This document shows positions 30,004 to 40,350 of a stretch of 64,000 bases of DNA, piece by piece. How positions within the stretch are numbered: the first letter of the stretch is position 1; each line of letters begins with the position of its first letter. The notes beneath the pieces are model-generated. The model was not told the DNA's origin, did not search any database, and was given only the letters and a program-made list of their open reading frames with translations. Both the position numbers and the translations under genes were made by a program. Source of the stretch: Corynebacterium canis (lineage in GTDB: Bacteria; Actinomycetota; Actinomycetes; Mycobacteriales; Mycobacteriaceae); the NCBI RefSeq assembly GCF_030408595.1, contig NZ_CP047080.1, positions 2,383,685 to 2,447,684 of the forward strand, given 5' to 3'.

Positions 30004-31149
30004 ATGTCCCACGCACCAGTGGTCCGCAAGGTTCGACATGACATCAACGTAAAACCCTTTATCGTGATTTGGGAGGTCACGCGCGCCTGCAGCCTGGTGT
30101 GTAAACACTGTCGCGCGGACGCCCAGCACGAACCGAATCCGCTGCAACTCACCACCGCACAGGGGCGGGCGCTGCTGGAAAACTTGGCGGCATACGACAA
30201 GCCCCGCCCCTTGGTCGTGCTTACCGGCGGCGATCCGTTCGAACGCGAGGATTTGGAAGAGCTCACGGCGTACGGCACGTCCTTGGAGCTCAATATTTCC
30301 TTGTCCCCCTCCGTCACCCCGCGCCTGACCGTGGAACGCATCGCACGTTTGCGCGAGGCCGGCGCTAAGGCGATGTCCATGTCTCTCGACGGCGCGACGG
30401 CGGCCACCCACGACGCCTTCCGCGGCTTCCCCGGCACCTTCGATCAAACAATCGCGATGGCTCCGGAGATTACCAAGCTCGGCTACCGGCTGCAGATCAA
30501 TTCCACGCTCACCCGCGGCAATATCCACGAGGCCCCGGCGCTGCTCAAGCGCGTCATGGATATGGGCGCGAAGATGTGGTACGTGTTCTTCCTGGTGCCC
30601 ACCGGCCGGGGCGCGGCGCTGAATTGCTTGGACCCATTGGAGCGGGAGGATGCGCTGCACTGGCTCGCGGACATCTCGAACAGAATTGCTATTAAAACGA
30701 CAGAGGCCCCGCAGTACCGGCGCGTGGTTATCCAAAACAAACAGGGCGTGCCCTTTGTGGGCGGCAAGCTGTACCGCGAGCTGACCGAGGAGACCACCCG
30801 CCTGCTCGGCGCGAAGCCGGAACGCCCCCGCCCGCCGCGCGCGCCAATGGCCGTAAACTCCGGCTCCGGTTTCGCGTTTATCGACCATATTGGCGATGTC
30901 TACCCGAACGGTTTCCTACCCCTGCACTGCGGCAATGTGGCGGAAACGGACTTCCACGATATCTACACCAATTCCCCGGTGTTCAAGCGCCTGCGGGATC
31001 CCGATAACTGGCACGGCAAGTGCAGCGTTTGCGAGTTCCACGGCGTGTGCGGTGGTTCCCGCTCCACCGCCTACGCGCTGACCGGCGATTATCGCGCCTC
31101 CGACCCCACGTGCGCCTACATTCCCCCCGCATGGAAGGCGGCAAGTTAG
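30004..31149 (+). CDS. Radical SAM/SPASM protein (TIGR04053-like)
   Basis: 381 residues. Cluster-binding motif CSLVCKHC (Cys29, Cys33, Cys36) near the N-terminus, then LTGGDPFERED (the GGE-like SAM-binding motif) and SLDGATAATHDAFRG. The C-terminus carries a SPASM-type set of cysteines (HCGNVAE, CSVCEFHGVCGG, PTCAYIP) for a further iron-sulfur cluster. It looks like the actinobacterial family often labelled 'heme biosynthesis-type radical SAM', related to AhbD/NirJ enzymes. Reaction unknown. AGGAG precedes the ATG. It is 25 bases before the HNH lipoprotein and about 780 bases from the end of the sactipeptide operon, but on the opposite strand, so membership in that system is not shown. Confidence 0.8.
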   Translation: MSHAPVVRKVRHDINVKPFIVIWEVTRACSLVCKHCRADAQHEPNPLQLTTAQGRALLENLAAYDKPRPLVVLTGGDPFEREDLEELTAYGTSLELNISLSPSVTPRLTVERIARLREAGAKAMSMSLDGATAATHDAFRGFPGTFDQTIAMAPEITKLGYRLQINSTLTRGNIHEAPALLKRVMDMGAKMWYVFFLVPTGRGAALNCLDPLEREDALHWLADISNRIAIKTTEAPQYRRVVIQNKQGVPFVGGKLYRELTEETTRLLGAKPERPRPPRAPMAVNSGSGFAFIDHIGDVYPNGFLPLHCGNVAETDFHDIYTNSPVFKRLRDPDNWHGKCSVCEFHGVCGGSRSTAYALTGDYRASDPTCAYIPPAWKAAS

Positions 31150-31173: not shown

Positions 31174-32010
31174 ATGAGGTTTGCGTGGATTTGCGCTTTA
31201 ACGTTGCTGCTCACGGGCTGTGCCGGCTCCCAAATCATAGATACCAAACCCCTCCCACAACCCGAACAAGAGTTCCCCGAATTGAACGCGCTGCCGGTGA
31301 AGGGCCGCGCGCCAAAAACGGGGTATTCACGCGAGGCGTTTGGGGAGCGTTGGTCGGATAACGTCACCGTTGATGGCGGCCATAACGGCTGCGATACCCG
31401 CAACGATATACTCGGCCGCGACCTGGTGAACATCACTTTTAAGCCGGGCACGCGGGATTGCTTGGTGCTCAGCGGCACGTTGCAAGACCCGTACACGAAC
31501 ACCCAGATCGCCTTCGAGCGCGGCGAGGCCACTTCCCCGCTCGTGCAAATCGACCATGTGGTCTCCCTTTCGAACGCTTGGCAGACCGGTGCGCAGCAAC
31601 TTACGCCCGAGCAACGCCAGGATTTTGCCAACGACCCGCGCAACCTACTCGCCGTGGATGGCCCCACCAACCAGCAAAAAAGCGATGGCGACGCCGCGAC
31701 CTGGCTCCCCCCGAACGCCGCGTTCCGCTGCGAGTACGTGCAGCGCCAGATCGAGGTCAAGGCCAGTTACGGGCTGTGGGTCACCCCGCCGGAAAAGGAA
31801 GCCATGGCCCGCGTTTTGGCCTCCTGCGGGCAGCAGCAGATGCCCGCCGATCCCACCCCCGCGCCTTCGCAAGAAGATTCGGATGTGCTGTATCCGGATT
31901 GCAAGGCAGCGCGCGCGGCGGGTGCCGCCCCGATCTACCGCGGCCAGCCGGGGTACCGCCCCGAAATGGATGGCGACGGCGACGGCATTGCTTGCGAATC
32001 CGCGCGGTGA
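31174..32010 (+). CDS. Secreted HNH-type nuclease lipoprotein with Excalibur domain
   Basis: 278 residues. A lipoprotein signal peptide ends in the lipobox LLLTGC (Cys16). The central DUF1524/HNH-like domain has the catalytic-type motif VQIDHVVSLSNAWQTGAQQL, a following Asn in DPRNLLAVDGPTNQQKSD, and structural Cys residues. The C-terminal 35 residues form an Excalibur motif (YPDCKAARAAGAAPI … MDGDGDGIACE), a short Ca-binding element linked to extracellular nucleases. It should be exported and anchored, and may degrade external DNA. Its 3' end overlaps the convergent membrane-protein gene by 76 bases. Confidence 0.85.
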   Translation: MRFAWICALTLLLTGCAGSQIIDTKPLPQPEQEFPELNALPVKGRAPKTGYSREAFGERWSDNVTVDGGHNGCDTRNDILGRDLVNITFKPGTRDCLVLSGTLQDPYTNTQIAFERGEATSPLVQIDHVVSLSNAWQTGAQQLTPEQRQDFANDPRNLLAVDGPTNQQKSDGDAATWLPPNAAFRCEYVQRQIEVKASYGLWVTPPEKEAMARVLASCGQQQMPADPTPAPSQEDSDVLYPDCKAARAAGAAPIYRGQPGYRPEMDGDGDGIACESAR

Positions 32011-32804
32011 CGTCCCGCCTTTGCGTGTCGACGCCGCGCCGGCCGCGCTATCGTCGCATCCACCTCGCACAGGTGGTTGCCCGTGATAAGCCCGGCCAGT
32101 GAAATAAAAACCACCAGGCTAAGGCCCAGTATGGTCATGGTTCGTGTCTCAAACACACCAGCCGCGACGGTCAGCAACCCCCATAAAAACGTGCCGTGCA
32201 CACTAACCATCAGGTAGGTCTTTAGCCCGCCCGGCGGAATGCCCAGGATGCCCAGCAACCACGCGACTGTCAGGCCGGGGATCAGCAGGAACAGGTCGCC
32301 CGCGGTCAGGGAGGATCCCAGGTACGCAGACCCCAGAAAGGCCGCCGCCACCATCGCACAATATTTCCATTGCGTCATGCGTTCCCGGGTGGGTGGCATG
32401 CCTTTGAAAAACACGAGCATATTTACCACGCCCACCAGCCAGGGAAACAGGTCCGGCGGGATGGGCAATCGGGGCGGCTCTATACCCAGCGCGCGAAACA
32501 GAATAAAGGTAAGACTCGGCGCAATTAATCCCATCGGTATCACCGAGGCAAGGGCCTGCGCGATGCTAATTGGGTCGGCATTACGCATATTTCCCATCAA
32601 CCAAAACAGCACGCAATACACCAGGCCGCTCAAACAGGAGGCACACATCAGGCAACCGATTATGGAAAGCAATGCAAAGCTGGATAGTTCGCCCGCATCC
32701 TGTTTCGGAAAGTTCATTCGGACGGATGCAATGGAAAGCACAAAGGCGCACGCCACAAACCCGAAGTATCGCAGGCGCATTAGCAACCGGCTACGCCTGT
32801 CCAT
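31935..32804 (-). CDS. Polytopic membrane protein of the sactipeptide cluster (AlbG-like by position)
   Basis: 289 residues starting at an ATG inside the last codons of the upstream M16-like gene (14-base overlap), which argues for translational coupling. About eight hydrophobic segments alternate with short loops (for example FGFVACAFVLSIASV near residues 14-28 and LFLLIPGLTVAWLLGILGI). The final ~45 residues are polar and Arg/Ser-rich and lie in the part that overlaps the convergent nuclease gene by 76 bases, so the natural end may matter less. No enzyme motif. In subtilosin clusters the last gene, albG, also encodes a membrane protein of unclear function; I assign this only by position and topology. 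Confidence 0.65.
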   Translation of the reverse strand: MDRRSRLLMRLRYFGFVACAFVLSIASVRMNFPKQDAGELSSFALLSIIGCLMCASCLSGLVYCVLFWLMGNMRNADPISIAQALASVIPMGLIAPSLTFILFRALGIEPPRLPIPPDLFPWLVGVVNMLVFFKGMPPTRERMTQWKYCAMVAAAFLGSAYLGSSLTAGDLFLLIPGLTVAWLLGILGIPPGGLKTYLMVSVHGTFLWGLLTVAAGVFETRTMTILGLSLVVFISLAGLITGNHLCEVDATIARPARRRHAKAGRHRADSQAMPSPSPSISGRYPGWPR

Positions 32805-33534
32805 CGCGCACCAACTCCAAAAGCACTTGCACCAGCTGGAAGGGTTGTTGCAACGCAGTTTCGAAATCCGCCTGCACCACCGGACGGCCCACCAGGCCGG
32901 TATCCTCGGGATCCCATTGTGCGCCGTAGATGCGCTGGCCGAGGCGTTGCGCCACCGCAGCGTTCGCGCAGCACACGGCGACAACCTCGGAGAGATCCAC
33001 CCACATACGTTCGTTCGCGCTATGATCCGCCTCCACCACCACGCATTCCCGCAGCGCGTGGGCGCGCAACGCCTCAAGGTGCGGCACGCGCACCGCCGCG
33101 AGTTCGCTCGCACGCCCGAGAACCCGCGGGTCCTTGAGCCCGCGATACCGTTCCAGCTCCGCGGCAAGGATCCGTTGCTCCTTGCGCCAGGCTTCCGGCG
33201 CACAACGCTTGGTCAAAAACTCCGACACGTCGAGGTCAAACCCGGCGGGCAGCACGAAAAAGAACTGCATACCGGCAGTGGTGGTAAAGGCATTGCAGGT
33301 ACCACCGGCGTTATATATCCGGGCCAGGGAGTCCTCGTTGCTCCGCAAGATGTAATGCTCGAGGAAATGAAGGCGGGTGGGATGCGCGGCGTCGATAGGC
33401 AAACGCAGGTCTATGATCACGACCTTGCATTCGCACGGCCACGCGATGCGGCAAGCTGTGATGGGGCCGAGGCCGCGTTCGTCGGCGTCTCGGAATTCGC
33501 TGGCGCGGCGCTGAAGTAATGCGGAGATGCTCAT
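32791..33534 (-). CDS. M16-type zinc metallopeptidase subunit with HFLEH (AlbF-like)
   Basis: 247 residues. The inverted zinc motif HXXEH appears as HFLEH at residues 56-60, followed by GGTCNAFTTTAGMQFFF, the M16 'GG..NA.T......Y/F' block, and a candidate third ligand Glu126 in EQRILAAELERY. The protein is about half the usual M16 length and shorter than B. subtilis AlbF. The start overlaps the stop of the upstream gene (ATGA). Likely role by analogy with AlbF: removal of the leader peptide and perhaps help in head-to-tail cyclisation. Identification as a peptidase is firm from motifs; the role is inferred. Confidence 0.8.
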   Translation of the reverse strand: MSISALLQRRASEFRDADERGLGPITACRIAWPCECKVVIIDLRLPIDAAHPTRLHFLEHYILRSNEDSLARIYNAGGTCNAFTTTAGMQFFFVLPAGFDLDVSEFLTKRCAPEAWRKEQRILAAELERYRGLKDPRVLGRASELAAVRVPHLEALRAHALRECVVVEADHSANERMWVDLSEVVAVCCANAAVAQRLGQRIYGAQWDPEDTGLVGRPVVQADFETALQQPFQLVQVLLELVRDGQA

Positions 33535-34331
33535 ACAAAATCCAATGAACAATCTGTCGAATACAGCTCGGCGCACAGCGTTTCGGCCGTCATGGTCTGG
33601 ATTTCCGCGAGGAGCGTGTCCCAGGTGCAGCGGGGTTCCATGAGCCGATACGGAAGCAGCGCTGTACCCCTGAAATGGGGTGGCTGGAAGCGCAGGTTTA
33701 ACACCATGCCCGCTTTCGTACCGGCTAGCGAATCTGCGATCCAATCCGGATGCCGCAGGCTGGCGGCCACGCAATCGGCGATCGGATCGAATCCGGTGGG
33801 CTTTCGGAAGCGAAATGAAAGGCGCAATGCGAGTGTGATTTCGTCGAAGATCACTTCACAGTCGTAACACAATCCGTTTTCAATAACGCTTCTGATTGGG
33901 GAATGCGGATTGTTGTTTTGAAACATTCTCTCCAGCATTCGCCACGCAATCAGGCGTTTTAGGGAGAAAAACCCAAGTGGCTCAAACATCAGCGCCCCAG
34001 AAGTGTGTGCCGTGCCGGCGAGATTGGTCTTTGCTACCAGACCAATATTCGCCTCGGGCGGTTCGTGGTGGGCAAAGAATTCTTCCTCAGAGACGTATCT
34101 CAACTCTTTGCCCACTGGCGTAACTACCGTAGGCACAAACCCCAGTTCGGATGAGAAAGCCACTGGGTAATATCCAGTATAATAGTTGCCAACGATTCCG
34201 TACCTCACCTGAGTTTTATTCTTTCGATAAGGGCTCGTATATGCGGCCGAGCACCGCCGCAGAAACGGCATCACGCTCAGGTATTGCGGATACGTGAATC
34301 GCGTGGGGGAAATGGTCACGTGTTGCGCCAT
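33531..34331 (-). CDS. M16-like non-catalytic partner protein (AlbE-like by position)
   Basis: 266 residues starting MAQHVTISPTRFTYPQ; GGAG is eight bases before this ATG, so the GTG nine bases further up was not used. I see no HXXEH. Its size, the VVTPVGKELRYVSEEE-like beta/alpha pattern and a neighbour with HFLEH fit a second, inactive M16-type half, as in AlbE/AlbF or the two-subunit bacterial M16 proteases, where catalytic and substrate-binding halves are separate chains. This is an inference from position and layout; primary similarity alone does not settle it. It follows the radical SAM gene after 15 bases. Confidence 0.6.
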   Translation of the reverse strand: MAQHVTISPTRFTYPQYLSVMPFLRRCSAAYTSPYRKNKTQVRYGIVGNYYTGYYPVAFSSELGFVPTVVTPVGKELRYVSEEEFFAHHEPPEANIGLVAKTNLAGTAHTSGALMFEPLGFFSLKRLIAWRMLERMFQNNNPHSPIRSVIENGLCYDCEVIFDEITLALRLSFRFRKPTGFDPIADCVAASLRHPDWIADSLAGTKAGMVLNLRFQPPHFRGTALLPYRLMEPRCTWDTLLAEIQTMTAETLCAELYSTDCSLDFV

Positions 34332-34346
34332 AGCAATCACTCCGCC

Positions 34347-35717
34347 TTACACGGACTTTGCAAACAACGTAACCAGCGCTTCGGCCCGATTGTCGCGCAC
34401 CCAGGCGCAATAATTCTCGGCGCGATCCACCGCATTCACATTGAGCGCATGCAACAAACATCCGCGGCAATACGTGAGATGTTCGCATTCCGGCGGGCAC
34501 CCAGTCTCCTCGCTGGGTGCGGGGGTTTCCCGCAATTTCAGCGCCATAGGCTGGGCAAAGAGATCCTCCCAGGAATCGCGGTGCACATTTCCAAATGAAA
34601 ACGATTCTGGAAATAGATTGCACGGACGCAGATCACCATTGGCGCTCACCACAACGGAATTCGAACCGGCGCCGCAATTATCCCGCACGGCTATTTCGGA
34701 GCGTTGCTCCTCCTCCACGATGGGCAGAATGTGCTTGTATTTCTCTACCACTTCGGCGAGATAATCCAGGTATTCTTGGCCGCCTTGGCCCGCCTGCTGT
34801 TCCACCATGTCTTTGCCACGGCCGAACCCTTCGATGAAATTAAACACAAACATTTTGGCGCCGAGTTCGTGGGCCTGCTGCGCCATCGCTTCGAGTTCCC
34901 ACATGTTTTCATCGAACAACACAGCGCTGATGCGCACGAAAATTCCTGCATTGGTGAGCCTGCGAATATTCGCCACGGTTTTCTCGTAGGCGCGCCGATG
35001 ATTCCGCAACCTATTGTGCGTTTCCGGATTCGCGGAATCCAACCAAATGGATAGGGTGATGCGTTCGCGATGCGCCACCAAGAGTTCCAGCACGCGTTCG
35101 GTAAGAATCGTGGCGTTTGTAAACACCGCTACCTCGGAGAATTCCGCCAGCGCCACCTCCAGCATTGCCGGAAACTTGGGGTGCATAAACACTTCCCCAC
35201 CGGTGAGTTGCATGCGATACACATGGGCTTTGCGCATCTGTTGGCACAGCGAAGTAAACGCCGCAAGATCCATTTTGTCCAAACGTTTCGGCCCCGCAGC
35301 GAGGTAACAATGCGCGCACGCTTCATTGCAGGTGTTTGTGATTTCTACAATCACCGAACGCGGCGAGGAGGCTTTCGCGGACTTCAGCACGGGGATTTCC
35401 ACGGCGGGTGCTTTGCCACGCCCCGCCGACTCACTCACCGTGATTGCCTTGCGCTCCACCATTTGGAGGACGAAGCGTTCGATCCAATCGCGAGCCTTCG
35501 CCTCATCGAGGTGATGCTTTGTGCAAAACGAAGAAACAAATGTTGATGCTTGCTGGCACTCTTGGAGGTGTTGTAACAGCAATACCGCTGAATCGTTGAC
35601 GTCGAAACCGTCCCATACCTGGGCGCCTTGATCATTGGGTTTCTTGTACGCAACGGTATTTCCGTTTGTGGTGGAATATATCTTTAGTTCGGGGGCTGGT
35701 TCGAGTAGAAGCGGCAT
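34347..35717 (-). CDS. Radical SAM/SPASM sactipeptide maturase (AlbA-like)
   Basis: 456 residues, close to B. subtilis AlbA. The first ~95 residues look like a PqqD-type peptide-recognition element (DVNDSAVLLLQHLQECQQ then helices). The radical SAM core has Cys130-x3-Cys134-x2-Cys137 (CNEACAHC), followed by LTGGEVFMHPKF. The C-terminal SPASM region has seven cysteines including NCGAGSN, LRPCN, GCPPEC, YCRGC and YCAW, enough for two auxiliary iron-sulfur clusters. Such enzymes join Cys sulfur to alpha-carbons of acceptor residues. With the subtilosin-like precursor 2 kb upstream, a role as thioether synthase is strongly supported; the chemistry itself is inferred. GAGG precedes the ATG. Confidence 0.88.
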   Translation of the reverse strand: MPLLLEPAPELKIYSTTNGNTVAYKKPNDQGAQVWDGFDVNDSAVLLLQHLQECQQASTFVSSFCTKHHLDEAKARDWIERFVLQMVERKAITVSESAGRGKAPAVEIPVLKSAKASSPRSVIVEITNTCNEACAHCYLAAGPKRLDKMDLAAFTSLCQQMRKAHVYRMQLTGGEVFMHPKFPAMLEVALAEFSEVAVFTNATILTERVLELLVAHRERITLSIWLDSANPETHNRLRNHRRAYEKTVANIRRLTNAGIFVRISAVLFDENMWELEAMAQQAHELGAKMFVFNFIEGFGRGKDMVEQQAGQGGQEYLDYLAEVVEKYKHILPIVEEEQRSEIAVRDNCGAGSNSVVVSANGDLRPCNLFPESFSFGNVHRDSWEDLFAQPMALKLRETPAPSEETGCPPECEHLTYCRGCLLHALNVNAVDRAENYCAWVRDNRAEALVTLFAKSV

Positions 35718-35743: not shown

Positions 35744-36889
35744 CTACACCATCGCCCCAAAGGTGAACTCGTAGGCGACGATCACCGCGCCGGCGATCAC
35801 GGGTGCGATGTATTTGCGGGGATGCCGAAACACATCACGTTCCGTCTTGACGTTCACCAAGGGGAACTTGATTTCGAGAAACACGCTGATCGCCGTGGCA
35901 AGCAGCGCGATAAACAAACCAAATGCAATGTCGAGCGGTTGGAAGATCCCCAACCACGCCGCAACAGTATTTAGAAACGCAATGCCAATAACAAAGATCG
36001 GGAAGATCGCAAGACCCATGCGCAGCGCGCTTCCCCGCTCATCACCGATAAGATGAATCTGGTTGCGGGTATCGTCCTCACGGCTCAAGATCGAGGTCAG
36101 TGGGGTATTCACGCAGGCCAGGATCCAGAACAATCGCACCGGACCGTCCTCCTTGCCAATGACGTATACGACCATGGCCGCAAACGCATTAATAAGCAGG
36201 AAGCTGCTCCACGCACGGGTATCCAAAAGCCCATTGACCACAAAGTAGTTATTGACCTTGGTGCGCACAAACCTCGAAACCGCGGATTCTTTCCCCGTGC
36301 GCAATCGCGGAATCCTGCACGGAAGCAGAGATAATGCAACCAACGCGATCACGCACAACGCAATACCCAACCAGGGATGTACGTATTGCGCCGCCAAGCC
36401 GATAGCAGCAACTATCCCGAACCCAATGTATCCTGCGCGCCGCACGGGAATAGTTTGGGTGAGGAACAAGACGGCGTCGATAAGCAAAAGGTACAGCATA
36501 AGTGCGGCAAACGCGCCGGCCGTACCTTTGCCCACCATGAACAGCAGTGCTAACAGTGGAATCCAGACTTCGAGAATAAACACCCCGCTCGCGACGAGAA
36601 CATACGCCGCGACCAGTGTCTTTTCGCTGAAGGGGTACAGCAGCAGGCGCTCCAGACGCCCTTCGGCAAGCCAGCCGTTTTGAATCGTACGGACGAAAAA
36701 CACCGCGCTCAGGCTCAGCCCGAGATACAGGGCGTTATATTCCATGGACGGAATCATGTCCGACAGGAAATACAGCAAAATCAGGACCGAAGCGCACGTA
36801 ATAAGAACGCTACGGTTCAAAAATTCGCCGATAACGGCGTGGATACTCCACCGCAGATCGAGGTTTTTCAGAGAGGAGCTGGACAACAT
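35744..36889 (-). CDS. ABC-transporter-type membrane protein of the sactipeptide cluster (AlbD-like by position)
   Basis: 381 residues with about ten hydrophobic segments, no nucleotide-binding motifs, and a fold layout like ABC-2-type or AlbD membrane subunits. The ATG lies 80 bases inside the ATPase gene; GGGAAG sits six bases upstream and the hydrophobic first helix (VLITCASVLILLYFL) needs this N-terminus, so I keep the overlap. It would pair with the ATPase encoded just before to export the mature peptide or give self-protection, as AlbC/AlbD are thought to do. Substrate is inferred from the cluster. Confidence 0.75.
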   Translation of the reverse strand: MLSSSSLKNLDLRWSIHAVIGEFLNRSVLITCASVLILLYFLSDMIPSMEYNALYLGLSLSAVFFVRTIQNGWLAEGRLERLLLYPFSEKTLVAAYVLVASGVFILEVWIPLLALLFMVGKGTAGAFAALMLYLLLIDAVLFLTQTIPVRRAGYIGFGIVAAIGLAAQYVHPWLGIALCVIALVALSLLPCRIPRLRTGKESAVSRFVRTKVNNYFVVNGLLDTRAWSSFLLINAFAAMVVYVIGKEDGPVRLFWILACVNTPLTSILSREDDTRNQIHLIGDERGSALRMGLAIFPIFVIGIAFLNTVAAWLGIFQPLDIAFGLFIALLATAISVFLEIKFPLVNVKTERDVFRHPRKYIAPVIAGAVIVAYEFTFGAMV

Positions 36890-37580
36890 CTTTAGCTTCC
36901 CGCGGCACCGCGAACGGGCCGCTGAGTTGACCTTCTTTCAGTACGTACAACAGGTCGCAACAGCGAGTAAACGACTCCGCAATATGCGAGCTCAAAAACA
37001 CCGAATGGCCCTGATCGGAATAGGCATTGATGCACTGATACAAAAACTCCGTGCCAACGAAATCCAAGAAATCCACCGGTTCGTCCAAGATCAGCAACGG
37101 CCTGCCTAGCACAAACGCACAGATCAGGCGCGCCTTCTTATTGTTGCCGCTGGACAGGTCCCGCATCTGCTTATCCTTGTGCGGTGCAAAGTGAAAGCCC
37201 TCCACCAAGGAGCTAATAAACTCCTCCTGCGGTTCGACTCGATACACGCCGCACAAATAATCCAAGAATTGGCGGAAACTCCAGGTGAAAAAACTACGAT
37301 CGTCGGCGAAGACGGTATAGCGCTGCGCCTTGAACGCACGATCGGCTGGGGAGGTGAGCTTGGCATCCACGGAAAACTTGCCGCACTGCCAGCCGGGCAG
37401 GATACCCGAAATCCCCTTGATCAAAGTTGTCTTCCCGGCACCGTTGCCGCCCAATAATCCGACGACCTTGCCTGCTGGGATTTCAAGCCGCGCAGCCGAG
37501 GCGATAATCGTGTCCGGTTGGTACCAGACCTTAATATCCTCGGCCGCCAACCTGGGAGCCTTGAGTTCCTCCGGTGCCAT
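36810..37580 (-). CDS. ABC-transporter ATPase of the sactipeptide cluster (AlbC-like)
   Basis: 256 residues from MAPEELKAPRL, starting four bases after the preceding stop. Walker A GGNGAGKT at 44-51, a variant signature LSSGNNKKA at about 142-150 in place of LSGGQ, Walker B LLILDEP ending at 168, and H-loop His in FLSSHIAESF. The N-terminal ~25 residues precede the first strand of the domain. A single-domain ATPase with a separate membrane partner downstream. Likely energises export of or immunity to the peptide. Upstream in-frame codons to 37664 overlap the small membrane-protein gene and were not used. Confidence 0.85.
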   Translation of the reverse strand: MAPEELKAPRLAAEDIKVWYQPDTIIASAARLEIPAGKVVGLLGGNGAGKTTLIKGISGILPGWQCGKFSVDAKLTSPADRAFKAQRYTVFADDRSFFTWSFRQFLDYLCGVYRVEPQEEFISSLVEGFHFAPHKDKQMRDLSSGNNKKARLICAFVLGRPLLILDEPVDFLDFVGTEFLYQCINAYSDQGHSVFLSSHIAESFTRCCDLLYVLKEGQLSGPFAVPREAKDVVQLLSEKPRSAVEYPRRYRRIFEP

Positions 37581-37584
37581 TGGG

Positions 37585-37764
37585 CTACTCGGCGTTCTTG
37601 GGTTCACTCGAACGCTTCGCCGCCGCCTGAATGGTGGCCACGGCCAGCACGACTGTACCTGCACCCATGATTAAACTATCTGGGCCTACCCCATTGCGCA
37701 CGAACAGCATGACAGTAATAGCAGCGAAAATAAGGGTCAGAATTGCTTTGATGACGAAGTTCAT
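37585..37764 (-). CDS. Small two-helix membrane protein of the sactipeptide cluster (AlbB-like by position)
   Basis: 59 residues from MNFVIKAILTLIF; AAGGAG lies six bases before this ATG, whereas the first ATG 18 bases upstream overlaps that ribosome site. Two hydrophobic helices (about residues 4-22 and 31-49) and a charged tail KRSSEPKNAE. B. subtilis AlbB is also a ~50-residue membrane protein needed with AlbC and AlbD for immunity to subtilosin. Here it sits before the AlbC- and AlbD-like genes in the same order B-C-D. Function inferred from this. Confidence 0.7.
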   Translation of the reverse strand: MNFVIKAILTLIFAAITVMLFVRNGVGPDSLIMGAGTVVLAVATIQAAAKRSSEPKNAE

Positions 37765-37827
37765 GATCCTCTCCTTGTGCATCTTTACACTGTGCGAAAC
37801 AATGATTTGGTATCATTGCCCCTAACA

Positions 37828-37872
37828 CCACCGAGCGCTCAGACTCTCGGAAAATAAACGAACGCTCGGTGG
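37828..37872 (-). terminator. Stem-loop between precursor gene and the modification genes (possible attenuator)
   Basis: Perfect 10-bp inverted repeat CCACCGAGCG/CGCTCGGTGG enclosing 25 bases, 23 bases after the precursor stop. The following minus-strand bases (TGTTAGGGG) are not a strong U tract, so partial rather than full termination is expected. Such hairpins between a precursor gene and enzyme genes usually keep precursor mRNA more abundant. Confidence 0.55.
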
Positions 37873-37894
37873 GGTTGGAGGATTGGGGCTTGCA

Positions 37895-38035
37895 CTAATT
37901 CAGATGAAAGAGTGCGAGCCCCAGTCCGAACTCAAAGTCCGGAATTGGACCGGTAAGTGCACAGATTGCTCCTGCAGAGCAGGCAGAGCACCGCGATCCA
38001 TTAACAACCTCAGCCGGTGTTAAATCGGTGTACAT
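37895..38035 (-). CDS. Subtilosin A-like sactipeptide precursor
   Basis: 46 residues, too short for routine gene calls. A near-perfect ribosome site AAAGGAGG ends five bases before the ATG. Probable leader MYTDLTPAEVV; the core starts at Asn12 or Gly13. Cysteines at 16, 19 and 25 (C-x2-C-x5-C), then GPIPDFE at 29-35 and Phe43. B. subtilis subtilosin A has the same three-Cys spacing, the same GPIPDFE at the same distance, and Phe31 in the place of Phe43. I count 16 identities over 34 aligned core residues. By analogy, thioethers would link Cys25 to Phe34 and Cys16 to Phe43, and Cys19 to Leu40 where subtilosin uses Thr28. Core length is 34 or 35 residues, as in subtilosin (35). The AlbA-like enzyme lies downstream on the same strand. 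Confidence 0.9.
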   Translation of the reverse strand: MYTDLTPAEVVNGSRCSACSAGAICALTGPIPDFEFGLGLALFHLN

Positions 38036-38040
38036 TTTCG

Positions 38041-38048
38041 CCTCCTTT
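38041..38048 (-). promoter_or_regulatory. Ribosome binding site of the sactipeptide precursor
   Basis: AAAGGAGG on the minus strand, an almost complete complement to the 16S rRNA 3' end, five bases from the start codon. It is the strongest translation signal in this cluster and supports the short gene. Confidence 0.85.
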
Positions 38049-39155
38049 CTTTCGACACAACCGACCGTACGCGACGCATATTTTTTGCGCTAGCTCATTT
38101 TTCATTTGCGGCTGTAAGATATTTCATATTGCCGCCCGAAAAAACCTCATGTTATTTTCATTTTTCTTATTCTGAGCGGGCGAAATGCCGCAAATTCGGG
38201 GCCAAACAGGGGGGGAGATCACGCTTCCGAAACGGCTTTGACCTGCGCAAAAGCCGCGAGATCAATGCCTGCCGCACGCTTTACCTTGGCGCAAGGTGTA
38301 GTTATTGCGAGGAAATCACAAACCAACACTTTGAAATCACATTGACATAAAGAACGCGCAAACTTCGTTACACACCCAGGCGACATAGAACGGTAGGTTA
38401 GCAAATATTTACCAAAATGAGTCATTTTGCAAAACGTGGTTCTTACATGCATAAACAAACTCTAAAAATCGCCCACCAAGAGACACCAATGCAAACCAAC
38501 ACCAAATGCCGTGTATTTCAGGCACGCGAACGGCGATGCACCGTTAGCCGACCATTTAATTCGAACACTCCTTAACTGCCACATACACCACACGCCAAGC
38601 GAAATAGATTCGCACAACGTAAGTTTGTTTTTGCTGGGAGTGCGTTTCGTTTAAGTAGGAATATTGCAGCACTCACTACGCCCACGATAAAAGGCGCAAG
38701 CCATCTAAAGTTTCGCTCATCCGTTCGGGAAATCGGGGCATCCAGCAAGGTTTAAGCAAAACCAAACTTTAACAATATGCACAGATAATCCGCCGCCCCC
38801 GAATGCTCGATCCAACGAGACAGCCCAAGCTCCGTTTAACACCCCCGAAATGGGCTAAGCTCGCGCAGCGGATCGGCGGGCAATGCGGCGCACCGCGGAA
38901 CACACGAGCCCCAATCGCAAACGCCCCCATTTTAGGGGACTACGTAACACGCCCGAGCGCGCCCGCGATAGTTCCCCGAGCGTTTCAAGGAGGGAATGGC
39001 GGGCCCGAAGATGCCTCATCGGGGACGTGAAACGGCTAAAAATGACGGCTGCGGAGGGGGCCGCGGCGTCGAAAACCGGTACAACAGGCTCGGTGCAACC
39101 TCCACCGCGAACCCGCGCGCATTGCTACAGTGCAAAGTAAAAAGAGGTGGTACCG
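38049..39155. other. Gene-free, AT-rich region upstream of the sactipeptide cluster
   Basis: About 1.1 kb with lower GC than its surroundings, at least between 38090 and 38800. It must contain the promoter for the cluster on the minus strand and, near 39155, that of the Panacea-like gene. Open frames at 38129-38350 (+) and 38219-38458 (-) overlap each other, have no ribosome site and match no family I know. A run of seven G lies near 38210. No integrase or transposase relic was found. Confidence 0.5.
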
Positions 39156-39629
39156 ATGGAATACGCCCCCACGTTCATAGCAAACAATGTATTACGGCGA
39201 GCATTCGCAGAAAACAACGCCATCAACCCGGCAAAACTGCAAGCCATCCTGTACTTCATTGCCAGCGAATACCAAAAGGAAACACACGAACCGCTGTTTG
39301 ATGAACCCTTTGAAACCCTGCAATACGGCTCGCGATTACGCAGCGTGCTGTATGAATTCCGCGAGTTTCAACGCGACAACATCACACGCTTTGCCAGCGA
39401 CGGCGGCACCGAGCCACCCATGATCCACGAAAGCGCAGACCCAGCGTTACACCGCGCAATCGAACGCGTGTGGGATGCGGCGAAAGCGCGAAGCGTCGAA
39501 GAACTCTCGCACATTATCCAGCTGGAAAACTCGGCCTGGCACAAATCATTTCAGGCGGAAAACCCGTATGTAACCTCGGCGAACATCGCGGCGGACACGA
39601 CGTATTCCCGCGAGCTCGGGTTGGTGTAG
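39156..39629 (+). CDS. Panacea-domain (DUF4065/SocA-like) protein
   Basis: 157 residues from MEYAPTFIANNVL; AGAGG lies eight bases before this ATG. The pattern 'A..VAN.ll..a......i...KLQ.ILYF..s.Y......PLF.E.FE...YG' is the Panacea domain (here INPAKLQAILYFIASEYQKE … EPLFDEPFETLQYG). Panacea proteins serve as antitoxins in many toxin–antitoxin pairs and occur also alone in phages and bacteria. No toxin-like partner is seen beside it: upstream is gene-free and downstream is a thioredoxin-fold gene on the other strand. So either it is solitary or acts on something elsewhere. Confidence 0.75.
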   Translation: MEYAPTFIANNVLRRAFAENNAINPAKLQAILYFIASEYQKETHEPLFDEPFETLQYGSRLRSVLYEFREFQRDNITRFASDGGTEPPMIHESADPALHRAIERVWDAAKARSVEELSHIIQLENSAWHKSFQAENPYVTSANIAADTTYSRELGLV

Positions 39630-39729
39630 CGCGGGCGTGGCCACAGCGGGCGGTCGGCGCGGACCAGCGGCAAGCGGACCGGCACCCCCACCGGCCCAGC
39701 CGAACGCACCGGCCCGCCCCGCCTACTAC

Positions 39730-40350
39730 CTAGTCAAACTTGTACTCCTCGTTGCGCGTGCGCTTGATTTCAAAGAAGTGCGGGTACGCGGCGAGCTGCA
39801 CGGCGGCGTCGAAGATTTTGCCGGCGTCTTCGCCGCGCGGGATCCGGGTCAGCACGGGCCCGAAGAAGGCCACGTCGCCGACCTTCACCACTGGGGTTCC
39901 AACGTTATCTCCGACCGCGTCCATTGCTTCGTTGTGGTAGGAGCGCAATTGGCCGTCGAAGGTGGTGGTGTAGGCGGCGTCGAAACGTTCGGCGGGCAGC
40001 CCGCACGCCTCAAGTGCGGCGATGAGCGTTTCTTGGTATCCAGACTTGCTGAATTTCGGTGCCACTCCGCCGTTGTGGATGCGGGTGCCCAGTTCAGTGT
40101 AGAACTTGTCCAGAACGTCCAGCCCGTCGTTGACGGCTACGGCTGCGGAGACGCGGGCGGGTGCCCATGCTGCTTCCATCATGCGCTGGTAGTCGCCGGG
40201 CAGGTCGCGCCCGTGGTTGAGCACGGACAGGCTCATGGGCCGCCATTCCACTGTGACGTCGCGGACTTTTTCCACTTCTTTGATCCAGCGTGACGTGATC
40301 CAGCAATACGGACAGGTTGCGTCAAACCAGAACGTGACATTTGTGGTCAT
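39730..40350 (-). CDS. DsbA-like mycothiol-dependent nitroreductase (Rv2466c family)
   Basis: 206 residues from MTTNVTFWFDATCPYCWITS. Thioredoxin-fold active site Cys13-Pro-Tyr-Cys16, with an alpha-helical insert; the blocks PMSLSVLNHGRDLP, GTRIHNGG, GTPVVKVGDVAFFGPVL, IPRGEDAGK and YPHFFEIKRTR closely match from memory Mycobacterium Rv2466c, an enzyme that uses mycothiol as electron donor. Cytosolic thiol-dependent reductase is therefore the likely function. Beside pepN as in C. glutamicum. The start follows the stop of a small upstream gene by five bases, with GGTGAG as ribosome site. Confidence 0.85.
   Translation of the reverse strand: MTTNVTFWFDATCPYCWITSRWIKEVEKVRDVTVEWRPMSLSVLNHGRDLPGDYQRMMEAAWAPARVSAAVAVNDGLDVLDKFYTELGTRIHNGGVAPKFSKSGYQETLIAALEACGLPAERFDAAYTTTFDGQLRSYHNEAMDAVGDNVGTPVVKVGDVAFFGPVLTRIPRGEDAGKIFDAAVQLAAYPHFFEIKRTRNEEYKFD

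Follow-up and report, generated by a model that had tools for sequence, protein, structure and literature searches.

A predicted subtilosin-type sactipeptide cluster in Corynebacterium canis with a changed acceptor position and C-terminus

The closest described systems to the locus presented here are the sbo-albABCDEFG clusters of Bacillus, for which we used those of B. mojavensis (L014), B. tequilensis (L015) and B. thermotolerans (L013). According to parts of a review (PMC8172795), each of the exchanges F22A, T28A and F31A in the precursor SboA abolishes its processing by B. subtilis AlbA, although Ala is accepted elsewhere, namely as Ala25 of thuricin CD Trn-beta. An sbo-alb cluster outside Bacillus has been described for Staphylococcus pseudintermedius (PMC12300986), but this host also belongs to the Bacillota, and the relevant part of that paper leaves albB and albG unannotated. 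Within Corynebacterium, a sactipeptide area with bmbF was predicted by BAGEL4 in C. amycolatum ICIS 9 in 2022 (PMC8878833). As far as the main text of that paper goes, the word 'subtilosin' does not appear, and the area is likened to our locus by description, not by sequence. NCBI already names two relatives of the precursor described below, P0003 of C. freiburgense and P0002 of a Corynebacterium sp., 'subtilosin A family bacteriocin'; P0004 is nameless. The subtilosin family is therefore not new to Corynebacterium, and a claim to the first actinobacterial member does not stand. The original prediction, which knew such sactipeptides from Bacillus-type hosts, was too strong in view of these labels and of the predicted C. 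amycolatum area. In the open literature, covered mostly through titles and abstracts, we found no description of a Corynebacterium cluster of the subtilosin type. What is new, within the searches made, is the description of an eight-gene cluster, its chromosomal site, the co-occurrence of its genes and its departures from the Bacillus pathway in acceptor residue, C-terminus, gene order and AlbEF size.

The window analysed here is a stretch of 64,000 nucleotides from C. canis. On its reverse strand, positions 37895-38035 hold an ORF of 46 codons with an ATG start, preceded at a spacing of 5 bases by the ribosome binding site AGGAGG (38041-38046); the 31 bases upstream of the gene are near-identical in two other species (loci L094 and L095). 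The encoded peptide passes the Pfam family Subtilosin_A (PF11420; 32.6 bits against a curated cut-off of 25, E 9.4e-8) and matches the PDB sequence 1pxq (E 4.3e-6), which is subtilosin by its letters although the entry reads 'Subtilisin A'. A search of NCBIfam with the peptide gave no match at E <= 0.1. Orthologues that are 83% identical as peptides (P0003 and P0002) lie at the same place in the two relatives, together with the same eight genes. Differences between the precursor genes fall mostly on third codon positions (25/34, 17/26 and 27/37 in the three species pairs), and between the window and L094 we counted 21 synonymous and 8 non-synonymous codon changes. Because of the PF11420 score, the 1pxq match and this conserved codon pattern, a chance ORF is ruled out; the precursor gene is real and under selection at the peptide level. 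The near-ideal ribosome site that had been predicted for it is present as described.

The peptide carries C-x2-C-x5-C followed by GPIPDFE in the same register as Bacillus subtilosin, in agreement with the original prediction. The 16 identities in 34 core residues given there are confirmed exactly; this figure includes three residues before the first Cys, and from the first Cys on the count is 16/31. In subtilosin numbering, Cys occupies core positions 4, 7 and 13, and the acceptors Phe22 and Phe31 are both present. Cys spacing, Phe22 and Phe31 are common to the Bacillus loci, and so is GPIPDFE between the window's type and Bacillus subtilosin, with GPFPDFE in B. thermotolerans. The latter locus also holds, downstream of the subtilosin gene, a further precursor-like ORF that is degenerate (L013, 495-668): its first Cys has become Tyr and its Phe31 has become Val. 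All five actinobacterial precursors aligned retain the three Cys and Phe22; four of them also retain Phe31, while that of genome G210 has Trp.

Two positions differ. Position 28 is Thr in all four Bacillus peptides aligned, one of them being the degenerate second copy, whereas the five actinobacterial precursors read Leu, Leu, Ala, Ala and Ala (Leu in the window, Ala in C. freiburgense). Three of the four Bacillus peptides have Gly35; all five actinobacterial ones lack it and stop at register position 34, where the residue is Asn, His, Arg, Asn or Phe; the last residue is Asn in the window as against Arg or His in the C. freiburgense and Corynebacterium sp. peptides. The leader is longer in the window's type than in Bacillus. 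Four precursors of this type share VVNGS(R/K)C, and a cut before the Asn of this motif would yield a core of 35 residues, the length of subtilosin.

Seven genes follow the precursor gene on the same strand, encoding a membrane peptide, an ATPase, a permease, AlbA-like, AlbE-like and AlbF-like proteins and a further membrane protein. The order is thus sboA-B-C-D-A-E-F-G, with albA fourth among the alb-like genes, as opposed to sbo-albABCDEFG in Bacillus. The central gene (34347-35717) encodes a protein of 456 aa with the radical SAM and SPASM domains PF04055 and PF13186. Its best NCBIfam model is NF012164 (AlbA; 273.5 bits, E 2.3e-81), but the 850-bit cut-off of that model is not reached, and we therefore call the protein AlbA-like. 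It is 32–36% identical to the three Bacillus AlbA proteins and shares with two of them the CX3CX2C motif and seven C-terminal Cys (Cys130, 134, 137, 348, 366, 407, 411, 417, 420 and 437). By this cysteine set it is predicted to be a radical SAM/SPASM sactisynthase that forms thioethers.

An ABC transporter is likewise common to both systems. The AlbC-like ATPase (36810-37568; PF00005, 65 bits) is 26–33% identical to the ATPases of the three Bacillus sbo loci. The permease (35744-36889), with eight hydrophobic segments, matched no Pfam family and aligned with Bacillus AlbD by hhalign at E 1.2e-4 and a probability of 55%. A peptide of 65 aa with two hydrophobic segments (37585-37782) takes the AlbB position; its match to the corresponding peptides is weak, being equalled by 3 of 500 shuffles for B. 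thermotolerans and 15 of 500 for B. mojavensis. The membrane protein in the AlbG position (31935-32804; 289 aa, five hydrophobic segments) is assigned by position, and hhalign found no similarity to Bacillus AlbG.

The two remaining proteins correspond to the M16 pair of Bacillus, with its AlbF zinc motif. The AlbF-like M16B metallopeptidase (32791-33534; 247 aa) carries HFLEH at residues 56–60, and its E126, aligned by hhalign with a Glu of Bacillus AlbF, is likely the third metal ligand. It matches Bacillus AlbF at the profile level and its predicted fold matches solved AlbF; a PDB sequence search returned two weak matches, one of them a zinc protease. The AlbE-like protein (33531-34340; 269 aa) lacks HXXEH. 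It gave no sequence match to Bacillus AlbE by hhalign and no match in the PDB sequence search, and its low-confidence structural model places solved AlbE first by Z, although other M16 proteins score within 1 Z of it. Both proteins are about 110–180 residues shorter than those of Bacillus, where the longest ORFs give 381–408 aa for AlbE and 378–428 aa for AlbF.

Taken as a subtilosin-type sactipeptide cluster, the locus is well supported by the precursor family and the subtilosin match, the AlbA-like enzyme with its shared Cys, the AlbF metal motif, profile match and fold, the AlbE fold, the gene order common to three genomes, the co-occurrence of precursor and maturase, the codon pattern and the hairpin kept in three species. 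We consider it very probable that the ORF encodes a subtilosin-family precursor, the predicted substrate of the AlbA-like enzyme encoded four genes downstream, whose action on the three Cys would give a cross-linked sactipeptide that is likely a bacteriocin. The N-terminal domain of the enzyme would bind the leader. Thioethers would link Cys13 with Phe22 and Cys4 with Phe31, the pairs known from subtilosin, and Cys7 with Leu28 or a neighbour. AlbF, with AlbE as inactive partner, would then remove the leader, most likely before the Asn of the motif mentioned above, and ring closure may be a further task of the two proteins. Export would be carried out by AlbC/D, which together with the small membrane peptide would likely also provide immunity. 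Several points weigh against the cross-linked sactipeptide reading: the AlbA-like score of 273.5 out of 850 bits, Leu or Ala at position 28, the missing Gly35, the low-confidence AlbE model, the AlbG position without similarity and the absence of an E, F or G match in G210.

The acceptor at position 28 is the most interesting point of the cluster. Since T28A is not processed by B. subtilis AlbA, the Corynebacterium enzyme would need to tolerate a different residue or turn to a different position; otherwise Cys7 would stay free. The original prediction of three thioethers and head-to-tail cyclisation by analogy cannot simply be carried over, as the middle acceptor Thr28 is Leu and Gly35 is absent. 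The peptide might instead be a sactipeptide with two bridges (Cys4–Phe31 and Cys13–Phe22) and an open backbone, Cys7 being free or used otherwise. Phe22 in 5/5 and Phe31 in 4/5 precursors, the residues at position 28, the T28A variant and the lack of Gly35 in 5/5 would fit such a product, which we nevertheless regard as rather unlikely: Cys7 is present in all five actinobacterial precursors and the four Bacillus peptides, three genomes retain AlbE and AlbF, and Trn-beta shows, according to the parts of the review cited above (PMC8172795), that a sactipeptide can take Ala. Returning to the three-bridge product, we can tentatively go further. The actinobacterial AlbA branch may set the middle alpha-thioether on Leu28 or Ala28, and a trimmed AlbE/AlbF pair may cut, and perhaps close, a core of 35 residues that has Asn, His or Arg in place of the terminal Gly. 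The cluster would then be a naturally re-tuned subtilosin pathway, a proposal that we find plausible but short of probable. A subtilosin-type gene set in Actinomycetota offers naturally occurring AlbA and AlbEF variants whose substrate positions differ, and the contrast of Thr28 in Bacillus with Leu28 or Ala28 in Corynebacterium opens the acceptor rule of AlbA to a direct test. The shorter AlbE and AlbF and the peptide without Gly35 bear on ring closure, which part of a 2025 review (PMC12731061) calls unsolved in chemical detail.

The product likely acts against competing bacteria. Short cross-linked peptides of other clusters act as signals, and the peptide could in principle be cross-linked and serve as a signal or an agent of self-competition instead of a bacteriocin against other species. 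This seems improbable to us, as the transporter and the small membrane peptide fit export and immunity. The closest characterised relative, moreover, is antibacterial and thought to act on membranes, as stated in parts of the review PMC8172795.

A predicted RNA hairpin of 17 pairs without a U-tail (37824-37876, reverse strand) separates the precursor gene from the remainder of the operon, and folding of two Bacillus loci also gave a hairpin between the precursor gene and albA in each. The whole intergenic stretch folds at -43.2 kcal/mol (z -5.24). Across the three species 96.1% of the pair cells of the hairpin pair, and when the partner strand is slid, pairing of the main stem falls from 95.8% to 50% or less. 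Two pairs are changed on both sides and two are broken in one species; the double changes are matched by 57 of 500 shuffles, which with three sequences is weak as covariation. A scan for intrinsic terminators, covering loops of 3–8 bases, called none at the hairpin, the loop of which is longer. Rfam gave no family at gathering in 36000-40000, and no sigma-70-type promoter was found in 37500-39200, a result that says little in Corynebacterium. The hairpin likely sets a high precursor-to-enzyme ratio.

A protein search returned four precursors, including the window's own. Among 242 genomes of the genus, one per species, PF11420 (E <= 0.001) was found in four and the AlbA-like protein (E <= 1e-25) in the same four; at these limits no genome had one of the two alone. 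The four precursors keep the three Cys, and none of the 242 genomes retained the radical SAM gene with a precursor that had lost the Cys pattern. Three of the four (the window's genome, G089 and G215) have the full set of eight genes, with a common order and a common site. G210 shows the Bacillus arrangement of precursor, AlbA-like, small peptide, ATPase, permease (L093, 10559-14350), and the 20 kb read from its 36 kb contig gave no match to E, F or G. Judging by eye, we take the genes next to this cluster to be era, recO and uppS at one end and a fur-like gene with glyS at the other. Since both order and neighbours differ, there are two cluster types at two chromosomal sites. An AlbA-like protein of C. 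tuberculostearicum (P0008) is 50% identical and occurs on 85 contigs; no match of this type was seen among the 242 genomes at E <= 1e-25, perhaps because it is strain-variable or because C. tuberculostearicum is absent from the genomes searched. Among 396 sampled Actinomycetota genomes, PF11420 was found in one, the window's own, and the AlbA-like protein (E <= 1e-25) in four, the other three at 26–29% identity.

In the window, 9,832 bases separate rpiB from an Rv2466c-like gene. These two flanking genes lie on one contig in 23 of 24 other genus genomes sampled, 4–2,872 bases apart in 22 of them and 45,245 in one; the 24th had no Rv2466c-like match. The data fit a single gain of the cluster before the three species parted, with no recent copy from Bacillus. 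We rejected recent transfer from Bacillus on the identity of just 32–36% to Bacillus AlbA and on the tree. In an unrooted tree of 20 rows drawn from our own searches (an earlier tree with five distant rows was dropped for long branches), the three Bacillus rows separate from the remaining 17 (100/100), and the nine rows holding both Corynebacterium types cluster together (95/90). Spread by plasmids was also rejected: a tblastn search with the AlbA-like protein against 72,556 plasmid records (E <= 1e-20) gave two distant radical SAM matches (25–28%). That the cluster is a relic without any product in this strain, as its rarity in the genus (4/242) and its G+C content of 56.1% versus 60.3% in the rest of the window might suggest, is highly improbable, given that the eight genes are open in three species, the peptide changes are mostly synonymous and the ribosome site and hairpin are kept.

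We also noticed three genes around the cluster, all on the forward strand. Upstream of the precursor gene, 39147-39629 encodes a SocA/Panacea antitoxin-like protein (PF13274, 29.1 bits); at the corresponding gap of L094 and L095 no ORF of at least 150 aa is listed. At the other end, 31174-32010 encodes a protein with GmrSD_C and Excalibur domains that is likely a secreted nuclease; here and in L094 and L095, this gene and the convergent AlbG-position gene overlap at their ends. Just beyond the cluster, 30004-31149 encodes a TIGR04053 radical SAM/SPASM protein (517 bits) that is probably unrelated to the peptide. It is found at the same place in L094 and L095, and a TIGR04053-like match also lies between rpiB and the Rv2466c-like gene in two of the sampled genomes (G001 and G023).
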